This document shows, in pieces, positions 5,430 to 7,709 of a DNA stretch of 64,000 nt. The translations under genes were made by a program, and so were the position numbers. Every line of letters begins with the position of its first letter. Position 1 is the stretch's first letter. Source of the DNA: Flavisphingopyxis soli (GTDB lineage Bacteria > Pseudomonadota > Alphaproteobacteria > Sphingomonadales > Sphingomonadaceae); NCBI RefSeq assembly GCF_007995095.1, contig NZ_VOPY01000002.1, forward strand, positions 434,001-498,000, written 5' to 3'. The notes under the pieces are model-generated. The model was given only the letters and a program-made list of their open reading frames with translations. It was not told where the DNA came from and searched no databases.

Positions 5430-6008
5430 ATGGCAACCGTAATCCGTCTTTCGCGTGGTGGCTCGAAGAAGCGCCCTTATTACAAGATGGTCGTCGCCGA
5501 TTCGCGCAGCCCGCGTGACGGCAAGTTCATCGAGCGTATCGGCAGCTACAACCCGCTGCTCGCCAAGGACGACGAGAAGCGCGTTGTGCTCGACGCCGAG
5601 CGCGCCAAACACTGGATCTCGGTCGGCGCGACGCCGTCGGACCGCGTTGCCCGGTTCCTCGACGCCGCCGGCGTGATCGAGCGCGCACCGCGCAACAACC
5701 CCAACAAGGCAAAGCCGGGCGAGAAGGCCGTCGAGCGTGCTGAAGAGCGTGCCGAGAAGGCTGCTGCTGCCGTCGAAGCGGCCAAGGACGCCAAGGACGC
5801 CGAAAAGGCTGCCAAGGAAGCCGAGACCGTCGAAGTGGCCGCCGAAGCGGTTGAAGACGCCACGACCGACGCTCCTGCTGAAGCGGCACCTGAAGCTGCT
5901 GCCGAAGAAGCAAAGGCTGAAGAGGCTCCTGCCGAAGACGCCAAGGCTGACGAAGCCGCTCCGGCTGAAGACGCCAAGGCCGACGACGCCGAAAAGACCG
6001 AGGGCTAA
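5430..6008 (+). CDS. rpsP: 30S ribosomal protein S16 with long Ala/Glu/Lys tail
   Basis: A small-subunit protein needed for 16S rRNA 5'-domain assembly. Residues 1-80 are the S16 fold ([21 protein letters not shown], then [11 protein letters not shown]). The family is usually 80-90 residues, but this one is 192. About 110 extra residues are almost only Ala, Glu, Lys, Asp and Pro, in EEAKAEEA-like and EDAKADEA-like repeats. Similar tails are common in sphingomonads, and the tail is presumably disordered. The gene lies 56 bases after ffh, behind an AAAGGAAA ribosome site. Confidence 0.97.
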
Positions 6009-6018
6009 GCCAGTCTCT

Positions 6019-6040
6019 CCCCTCCCGCTTGCGGGAGGGG
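6019..6040. repeat. Left terminal palindrome of DUF559 cassette
   Basis: A 10-bp perfect inverted repeat (CCCCTCCCGC / GCGGGAGGGG) around a TT loop, 10 bases after the rpsP stop. It could also fold as a stable RNA hairpin after rpsP, but no U-tract follows. Its exact reverse complement closes the cassette at 6476-6497. Confidence 0.85.
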
Positions 6041-6063
6041 ATGGGGGTGGGCATTGTCTGACC

Positions 6064-6975
6064 ATGCCCGACTTCAAGCCCAGGAATACGTCGCGCGCTC
6101 GGCAGCTTCGCAACGCAGCGACGCCCGCCGAACGCGTTCTGTGGCAAGCGCTTTCCGGGCGGAAAATCAAAGGCGCGAAGTTCAGTCGGCAAATGCCGGT
6201 CGGCCCGTATTTCTGTGATTTCCTGTGTCGGGAATTTCACTTGGTCGTCGAAATTGACGGCTATTCGCATGACTTAGCGGTGGAAGAAGACGCGGTACGC
6301 ACTCGGTTTCTGGAAGGCCAAGGTTTGCGGATTTTGCGTTTTTCCAACGAGGATGTTGTTGAAAATATAGAGGGTGTCGTTGTGGCGATAGACGAAGCGA
6401 TTCCCAAGCCCACCCCACATCCAGCCGGGAGTGAGCCTTCAGGGCGGGCGCCCCACCCGGACGGCCCACCCCAAACCCCTCCCGCAAGCGGGAGGGGCTT
6501 AAATCGCCGCGTCGTGCTGGCCGCCATTTCGGGGGCGCATGGCGTGGCGGGCGAGGTGCGCCTCAAGCTGTTCGCCGACGGCCCCGACAGCCTCAAGCGC
6601 TATGGCAGCTTCGAAGTCGACGGCCGCACGCTGACGCTGACCAAGATCCGGCCCGCCAACCACGGCGCGGTCGCGCGCTTTGCCGAGATCGCCGACCGCA
6701 CCGGCGCCGAGGCGATGCGCGGTACCGTGCTGACCGTCGCACGGTCGGCGCTGCCGGCGCTCGAAGAGGGCGAATATTACCATCACGACCTGATCGACCT
6801 GCCGTGCGTTTCGAGCGACGGCGAGACGCTCGGTACCTGCGTCGCGGTCGAGAATTTCAATGCCGGTGATGTCGTCGAGATCGAACGTGAGAACGGCAAG
6901 CGCTTCATGGTGCCGATCGCCGCGGTCACCGTCGGTGAAACGCAGCTGACGATCGATTCCGATTTCGTCGAATGA
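6064..6975 (+). CDS. rimM: DUF559 nuclease-like domain fused in frame to ribosome maturation factor RimM
   Basis: One uninterrupted 303-residue frame. Residues 1-112 are a DUF559 domain, related to very-short-patch-repair/PD-(D/E)XK nucleases, with [21 protein letters not shown] and VVEIDG (Glu63 and Asp65 are candidate metal ligands). Residues 113-146 are a Pro/Gly linker encoded by the cassette's right repeat. Residues 147-303 are RimM, which binds S19 and matures the 30S head: [23 protein letters not shown] at the N-terminus, then a PRC-barrel ending in [14 protein letters not shown]. RimM lacks its own ATG and normal first residues. The only in-frame alternative start near the boundary is GTG 6514, which would remove five RimM residues. 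The ATG at 6064 is the normal start of DUF559 proteins. Whether the cell makes a fusion or a separate RimM is not decided by the sequence. The stop overlaps trmD (ATGA). Confidence 0.85.
6476..6497. repeat. Right terminal palindrome of DUF559 cassette
   Basis: The exact reverse complement of the left-end palindrome, with an AA loop. In the reading frame of the fused protein it encodes part of a Pro/Gly linker (PPASGRG). Its GGAGGGG also looks like a ribosome-binding site, but the next in-frame start candidate (GTG at 6514) is about 16 bases on, which is too far for a good match. Confidence 0.85.
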
Positions 6976-7709
6976 CCTTCGCCGCACAAATCCTGACGCT
7001 TTATCCCGAGATGTTTCCCGGGCCGCTTGGCCACAGCATCGCCGGGCGCGCGCTGGGCGAGGGCAAATGGTCGTGCGATGCGATCCAGATCCGCGATTTC
7101 GCCACCGACAAGCACAAGAGCGTCGATGACACGCCGTCGGGCGGCGGGGCGGGGATGGTGATGCGTGCCGACGTGCTGGCGCGCGCGGTCGATGCCGCGA
7201 TCGAACGCCAGCCCGACGCGCCCGTTCTGGCGATGACACCGCGCGGCGAGCCGCTGACCCAGGCGCTGGTGCGCGAGCTCGTCGCGGGACCGGGTGTGAC
7301 GATCCTGTGCGGCCGTTTCGAAGGAATCGACGAGCGCCTGTTCGAAGGTCGTCCGATCCGTCCGGTGTCGATCGGCGACTATGTCCTTTCGGGCGGAGAA
7401 GCGGGCGCTTTGGTCGTTCTCGACGCTTGCATTCGCCTGTTGCCCGAGGTAATGGGCGCGCCGAAGAGCGGAGATGAGGAATCGTTTGAAAACGGCCTCC
7501 TCGAATATCCGCACTACACCCGGCCTAATGATTGGGAAGGGCGCACGATCCCCGAAGTGCTGCGATCGGGGGATCATGCGAAGATCGCCGCCTGGCGAAA
7601 GCAAAAGGCGGACGACGACACACGGTTACGCAGGCCGGACCTTTGGGAGCGCCACAATGGCGCTCGGGACCGACCTGCCTCTGGCGCGCGGCGAGAAAAG
7701 AAGGACTGA
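6972..7709 (+). CDS. trmD: tRNA (guanine37-N1)-methyltransferase
   Basis: A SAM-dependent enzyme that methylates G37 next to the anticodon and so prevents +1 frameshifts. It has 245 residues, close to the family length. The SPOUT trefoil-knot motifs are clear: [24 protein letters not shown] and [11 protein letters not shown]. The C-terminal domain has the YPHYTRP motif. The start overlaps the rimM stop by four bases, which means trmD is coupled to the fused rimM frame. The C-terminus ([14 protein letters not shown]) is slightly longer than in enterobacteria. Confidence 0.98.

Follow-up and report, generated by a model that had tools for sequence, protein, structure and literature searches.

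The rimM gene of the 64,000-nucleotide stretch of DNA analyzed here (the window) shares one open frame with a DUF559 nuclease gene, which is bracketed by inverted palindromic repeats. The reading that we consider probable is that a REP-like DUF559 element was inserted at the rpsP/rimM junction, that RimM is most likely made there as a chimera, and that the nuclease of this family spreads the palindromes. The loss of the ATG of rimM, rather than the open junction, is what matters at this site. Together, the DUF559 gene and its repeats make up one member of a large element family, which is more surprising than the single fusion, and the repeat-bracketed nuclease appears to represent a type of small mobile element that has not been described before.

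The element at the rpsP–rimM junction

The upstream neighbor of the element is the forward-strand ORF at 5430–6008, which from its sequence we take to be rpsP (ribosomal protein S16). The left arm (6019–6052, forward strand) is composed of the palindrome CCCCTCCCGC-TT-GCGGGAGGGG (6019–6040) and a G-rich tail, and the right arm (6464–6497, reverse strand) is its inverted copy, for which a hairpin is predicted. The two arms form a 34-nt inverted repeat (I1) with 94% complementarity and both contain the palindrome CCCCTCCCGC-NN-GCGGGAGGGG, which has two copies in the window versus 0.11 expected (up to three mismatches allowed). Between the arms, the gene of the DUF559 nuclease (PD-(D/E)XK, Vsr-like) starts at ATG 6064 and extends to 6402 on the forward strand, with the PF04480 match at 6085–6402. 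It is followed by a spacer (6408–6463, forward strand), the 5′ part of which (6408–6422) repeats a portion of the arm tail once more (direct repeat D2). Downstream of the right arm lies rimM without its own ATG (6502–6975, forward strand; nearest in-frame start GTG 6514), and then the forward-strand ORF at 6972–7709, presumably trmD judging from its sequence.

The first-pass annotation had proposed that a complete DUF559 domain, a repeat-derived linker and RimM are joined in a single frame, and all parts of this proposal were borne out. The frame of 6064–6975 (forward strand) is translated without an internal stop into 303 aa, in which Pfam recognized DUF559 at residues 8–112, the RimM N-terminal domain at 152–228 and the PRC barrel at 235–300, all above the cut-off. 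The DUF559 domain is complete, with a PF04480 score of 117.7 bits (cut-off 20.6), and the RimM part belongs to its family according to PF01782 (57.7 bits), PF05239 (30.5) and PF24986 (28.3), each exceeding its cut-off. The Pro/Gly linker between them is the translated spacer and right arm, and thus includes one half of the 34-nt inverted repeat. In the model of the chimera (overall pLDDT 87.7), both domains were confident and the linker between them was disordered (pLDDT below 50 at residues 123–140), and the two domains are predicted to fold independently. The proposed coupling of trmD to the chimera stood insofar as the rimM TGA overlaps the trmD ATG at 6972 (ATGA), but no tie between this overlap and the insertion was found.

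The DUF559 domain of the window keeps all of the residues that are invariant over 33 sequences (E23, E63, D65, H69, D76, and R79) as well as the nearly invariant D52. The modelled domain (pLDDT 86.7) matched 3hrl, a DUF559 protein, with a Z-score of 16.6, and the closest solved fold after it was that of I-Bth0305I (3r3p; Z 12.7, rmsd 2.3, 89 residues), followed by Vsr of E. coli (1cw0; Z 10.3, rmsd 2.0 over 94 residues) and TnsA (Z 6.5), while Foldseek with the whole chimera returned mainly RimM and PRC-barrel matches. The Pfam search of P0001 detected DUF559 and no Y1_Tnp. Judged by its modelled fold, the enzyme of the window is a Vsr-fold nuclease and not an HUH transposase.

The empty form of the site was found in G001, the single congener encountered, RimM of which is 90% identical. 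The element is absent from its rpsP–rimM junction and rimM begins there with ATG GAT CCC GCT CGC CGC, 6 nt past the rpsP stop; the check proposed earlier, whether rimM directly follows rpsP where the element is missing, thus had a positive outcome in this genome. DNA homology to G001 ends at position 6010 of the window and returns at 6504, that is, 493 bp stand in place of 15 bp, and these 15 bp include the rimM ATG. The earlier claim that rimM has lost its own ATG was thus confirmed, since the scan of in-frame starts finds no ATG at rimM and G001 has one, and its attribution to an inserted element agrees with both the empty site and the inverted repeat that brackets the DUF559 gene. The search with the chimera in 397 genomes of the family gave matches in 394, and among the matches listed only that of this genome covers both domains, consequently the RimM chimera is known to date from one genome and a family-wide DUF559–RimM fusion was rejected. 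In the search of named genomes every match in 19 relatives was limited to the RimM part, where the best relative by E-value was Novosphingobium cyanobacteriorum (60% identity) and the highest identity was shown by Alteraurantiacibacter aquimixticola (64%).

A family of DUF559 genes with inverted arms

Six DUF559 genes are present in this genome, and palindromic repeats were found beside all six, although on one side only at L004. In the family (Sphingomonadaceae), 149 genomes were sampled, of which 127 carry DUF559, with up to 10 copies per genome. To this genome's six loci were added 30 returned by the family search and 60 chosen from the best-scoring matches listed (about 10 of these picked for long frames and four taken from G001), which gave 96 DUF559 loci; due to this way of sampling, the fusions counted among them do not give a frequency, and weak matches to DUF559 are under-represented. 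Arms were defined as an inverted repeat across the gene with a local score of at least 16, and segments of the same size elsewhere in the same loci served as controls. With L122 excluded because of its position at a contig edge, inverted arms were detected at 85 of 95 DUF559 loci versus none of 550 control segments (control maximum 15.5), and the other 10 loci had no inverted arms by this local-score test. An earlier null distribution with mismatched flanks (L064 excluded) was a poor control, since the loci share arm types and its maximum of 117 was higher than every observed score; the same-locus segments were used instead. Chance palindromes were ruled out by the 550 arm-free controls and the low expectation in the window.

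By the strict palindrome pattern, 57 of the 96 loci had palindromes on both sides of the gene, 24 on one side, and 15 on neither, and the density was 2.85 per kb beside DUF559 versus 0.10 elsewhere in the loci. At the level of the class (Alphaproteobacteria), DUF559 was found in 64 of 190 genomes, and arms were present at 19 of the 30 loci returned, all outside this family, versus 3 of 169 controls. Arm similarity tracked the identity of the DUF559 proteins (Mantel rho 0.23, reached in none of 2000 permutations; species relatedness uncorrected). In the tree, the DUF559 of the window grouped with those of L110 (69% identity), L153, L144, L130, L147, L102, and L115 with a support of 0.885. The elements of L102 and L144 precede dnaG, as read from the N-termini, which means that related copies occupy different sites. 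One locus, L145 (G020), has tandem DUF559 domains in one open frame, scoring 124 and 65 bits, the second being much lower.

The elements often lie at the stop/start junctions of neighboring genes. Their start is within 40 nt past the stop of a frame of at least 120 aa in 54 of 85 cases versus 106 of 1870 random positions, and their end is within 40 nt of the ATG of an ORF of at least 120 aa in 34 of 85 versus 360 of 1870, the latter control being inflated by internal ATGs. The DUF559 frame passes the right arm in 56 of 85 elements, in 30 of these 56 by no more than three codons, and several DUF559 frames overlap the next gene as ATGA. The same next genes recur between genera: aroC, an lpd-type gene, trpA, a HisS/HisZ-type gene, dnaG, ligA, and nrdB were supported by Pfam with one representative each, while the other labels, including acpP, come from reading the N-termini. 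In eight elements picked for a near ATG, the best Shine–Dalgarno (SD) match was in or beside the arm, 1–12 nt 5′ of the ATG. A role of the arms mainly as intrinsic terminators was rejected, as no U-run follows the right arm in the window. At L063 (G008), DUF559 runs in frame into an apparent dihydrolipoamide dehydrogenase that retains its own ATG and the frame of which stops after about 106 residues, perhaps by a frameshift or sequence error. At L132 (G139), the DUF559 frame extends 277 residues beyond the right arm, but the gene that follows (likely rsmE) is in another frame, so that this is not a real fusion.

Palindromes also occur without the nuclease gene. With the pattern CCTCYCS-N(2-8)-SGRGAGG, 0–384 palindromes were counted per genome, while the reversed pattern used as control had a median of 2–3 matches, reaching 35 in G068 (a genome without DUF559 and with 2 real matches, which may hold another palindrome family). 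Over the 149 genomes, the number of DUF559 genes correlated with that of palindromes (rho 0.67; reversed-pattern control 0.05). At least 20 palindromes were found in 59 of the 149 genomes, all 59 with DUF559, and the 22 genomes without DUF559 had no more than 18 each. The sign test on sister pairs within genera, in which two palindromes were subtracted per DUF559, was not significant (25 agree, 15 disagree, 13 ties, p = 0.15), thus the correlation across genomes may partly be phylogeny. The 49 genomes with a single DUF559 had a median of 4 palindromes, and some of them carry many (112 in G111 and 90 in G155). These observations, like the sign test, weigh against the reading preferred here.

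In this genome 52 palindromes were counted. Of the 50 listed, 24 are located no more than 200 bp from another one, versus about 0.4 expected; a few of the paired ones adjoin DUF559 genes. Three pairs of the window type were read, and all were inverted like the element arms. One of them (L007, about 1490–1594) lies in frame inside the gene of an MFS transporter without any nuclease gene. This site measures 105 bp here versus 45 bp in the G001 orthologue, where the pair is absent, indicating that solo pairs also come and go. Hence two sites, rimM and the MFS solo pair, differ from G001 by replacement, and no clear target-site duplication was seen at either of them. A nuclease-free pair of the window type is likewise located inside an open coding frame at L009 (about 1500–1594). 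By their arrangement, the nuclease-free palindrome pairs are REPIN-like.

The thiL junction and the start of RimM

Another fusion was detected in two species of one genus (G069 and G144), where DUF559 is joined through the arm to ThiL, represented by the AIRS and AIRS_C domains. The fused genes (L129:517-1845 and L133:517-1845, both on the reverse strand) encode products that are 73% identical over 443 aa. The dS between them is 1.28 in the DUF559 and 1.03 in the ThiL part, with dN/dS of 0.13 and 0.25, respectively, which suggests that the ThiL fusion is old and has been under purifying selection. The arm-derived linker of 17 codons is unchanged as protein and nearly unchanged at synonymous sites (pS 0.07 versus 0.56–0.62 beside the linker), suggesting that the arm is constrained, or homogenized, as DNA. 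In L129, no in-frame ATG, GTG or TTG occurs from codon 84 to 165 and codon 83 is an ATG within DUF559; consequently, with standard starts any ThiL product of this locus must include at least the end of DUF559. Other in-frame GTG and TTG codons are retained in L133.

In this genus, 24 thiL loci were read, and nusB adjoins thiL in 23 of them. DUF559 is situated between nusB and thiL in three of the 24, fused in G069 and G144 and unfused in G185, and is absent from 21. The DUF559 of G185 is 58% identical to that of the fusion and its arm ends in GGGGGAGGGAGAA-ATGA, where the thiL ATG is kept and the arm is a putative SD 4 nt from it. Gene-less palindromes were present in the nusB–thiL gap of no fewer than three other species of the genus, at L176 (G177), L185 (G179; a pair), and L190 (G174), that is, in 3 of the 14 scannable gaps (those where the ThiL motif was found) among the 21 loci without DUF559. 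Compared side by side, the thiL junctions read as successive stages, with an empty site followed by coupled genes and then by a fusion, and by analogy this series makes the RimM chimera credible.

Which start serves RimM in the window has to be weighed against the codons available. In-frame ATG, GTG or TTG codons 5′ of the RimM core are at 6064, 6193, 6241, 6280, 6325, 6334, 6382, and 6514, with none between 6382 and 6514. It is possible, although in our estimate rather unlikely, that a RimM free of the nuclease is produced from GTG 6382 or GTG 6514, either by its own initiation or by coupling through the unwound hairpin, and that the shared frame is incidental. The best anti-SD match of GTG 6382, a codon inside DUF559, is at 7 nt, a better spacing than the 14 nt found for ATG 6064, and a start there would yield RimM and the linker without nuclease, while GTG 6514 would lose just the first two residues of RimM strand 1. 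The unfused arrangement with the arm as SD is known from thiL of G185, and the frequency with which DUF559 frames pass the right arm without implying fusion makes an open in-frame junction unsurprising in itself. On the other hand, GTG 6514 is indeed as poorly placed as had been claimed, because its SD-like run is 15 nt away (versus 4 nt at thiL of G185) and lies within the strong hairpin of the right arm, and at L129, which has no standard start after codon 83 ahead of ThiL, a real fusion persists. The further claim that a GTG is the only local alternative held for GTG 6514 as the nearest codon but has to be extended by GTG 6382 as another possible start. Since SD spacing lends no support to ATG 6064, the argument for the chimera comes from the intact in-frame DUF559 gene and the ThiL precedent; on these grounds, rimM is most likely translated now from the DUF559 start, presumably ATG 6064, as a nuclease–linker–RimM protein. 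That the junction arose from an assembly or sequencing error, or that rimM is decaying, is very improbable, considering that the element shows the arms of the family in the expected inverted order, both domains are intact, the assembly comprises 4 contigs with a completeness of 99.99%, and RimM appears under purifying selection versus G001 (dN/dS 0.18), even if this value may mostly reflect the time before the insertion.

Comparison with REP/REPIN systems

The arrangement of the elements recalls that of RAYT genes, which according to the accessible part of one report have two inverted REPs at their sides in every case, with trees of REP and enzyme that match in one genus (PMC2817692), and that of REPINs, which the available text of another describes as non-autonomous inverted pairs (PMC3116915). 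So far as these sources go, the likeness extends to the enzyme gene between two inverted GC-rich palindromes, found in the window and at 85 of 95 loci, to the dispersed and often paired related palindromes, and to the similarity of palindromes, which tracks enzyme relatedness. In contrast, the enzyme is an unrelated PD-(D/E)XK Vsr-like nuclease instead of a Y1 (HUH) tyrosine transposase, and DUF559 frames often cross the arm, where they can adjoin the following gene or be fused to it. A GTAG/GTGG head beside the palindrome was not seen either, the base profile of 143 outer flanks being A/C-rich, and the inner side having been judged by inspection only. As the architecture agrees and the enzyme and the GTAG head do not, the elements are RAYT-REP-like and not members of that class. 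By analogy, DUF559 is in the place of the unrelated RAYT transposase in a REP/REPIN architecture, and the model that fits would be a RAYT/REPIN-like system with a nuclease replacing the transposase.

Other known systems share single features with the elements. E. coli Vsr (1cw0) and the Caulobacter DUF559 protein VsrA, which the accessible part of its report proposes to act in very-short-patch repair (PMC12907096), resemble the enzyme of the window in the Vsr fold, in similar acidic and His residues, and in the DUF559 domain, but the DUF559 genes of this family are bracketed by palindromes and reach 10 per genome. The homing endonuclease I-Bth0305I has a near fold and belongs to nucleases named for DNA mobility; however, no intron or intein host was seen for the DUF559 gene, which is placed at a gene junction and bordered by palindromic arms. 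Rickettsia palindromic elements and other MITEs, according to the available part of a review (PMC10969869), are inserted as palindromes in frame in host proteins, similarly to the pair in the MFS gene, whereas the palindromes studied here belong to a nuclease-bearing element that adds a whole enzyme domain. DUF559 is also fused to another enzyme in bll5746, a SPOUT methyltransferase of Bradyrhizobium japonicum, but it is C-terminal there, as far as the accessible text describes it (PMC1829167). No report linking DUF559 to palindromes was found in the literature searched, with most subscription journals outside its reach.

The Vsr fold and the proposed role of VsrA also favor another explanation, namely that the palindromes are moved by a different factor, such as a RAYT-type Y1 transposase, and that DUF559 is a Vsr-like repair gene which travels between the palindromes or exploits them. 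Y1_Tnp was found in 13 of 24 mostly palindrome-rich genomes, and the non-significant sister-pair test is in line with this explanation as well, which we nevertheless regard as unlikely: 11 of the 24 genomes had no Y1_Tnp match, five of them with 140–259 palindromes, and five of the six Y1_Tnp loci read were without these palindromes by the strict pattern. The arms are, moreover, more alike where the DUF559 proteins are, though co-inheritance could contribute to this. RAYT as the sole driver was rejected because of the 11 genomes without a match. The one Y1_Tnp locus of six with such a palindrome nearby, L244 (G132), had an inverted-repeat score of 20. For DUF559, acting in repair would not exclude acting in mobility.

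Mobilization by DUF559, the reading we prefer, could proceed as follows. The element, a DUF559 nuclease gene between two inverted GC-rich palindromic arms, of which the window contains one family copy, was inserted at the stop–start junction of rpsP and rimM and took the place of about 15 bp, which by comparison with G001 include the rimM ATG. As the DUF559 frame exits via the right arm, RimM would be read from the DUF559 start and the two domains would fold independently. The nuclease may recognize and cut its cognate palindromes, as suggested by linkage, the matching of arm types, genome counts, and site polymorphism. Host repair could then spread both the full element and the nuclease-free pairs, which we infer from the two compared sites, because these resemble replacements and not clean insertions with duplications. 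The purine strand of the right arm may act as the Shine–Dalgarno sequence of the next gene, and the thiL junction suggests that upon loss of the ATG of that gene the coupled pair would turn into a fusion.

The mode by which REP palindromes spread and the reason why cells retain the linked enzymes are both called unresolved in the accessible text of the REPIN paper (PMC3116915). If an unrelated second enzyme occupies the same architecture, the general features of such systems (bracketing, pairs, matching of types) would become separable from those specific to the tyrosine transposases. The junctions suggest a route from an empty site through coupled genes to a gene fusion, and the proposed mobilization offers a testable function for a "domain of unknown function" that is present in most genomes of the family. 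Tentatively, and with less than even confidence, we propose that there is a second class of REP/REPIN-type mobile elements, a non-HUH one built around DUF559 nucleases, which may persist by making essential genes dependent on them. Such elements would insert at the start codons of housekeeping genes (rimM and thiL, and beside dnaG, trpA, lpd, aroC, the HisS/HisZ-type gene, ligA, acpP, and nrdB), where the right arm would first supply the ribosome-binding site and the process might sometimes end in an in-frame nuclease–enzyme chimera, so that clean loss of the element would be costly to the host.
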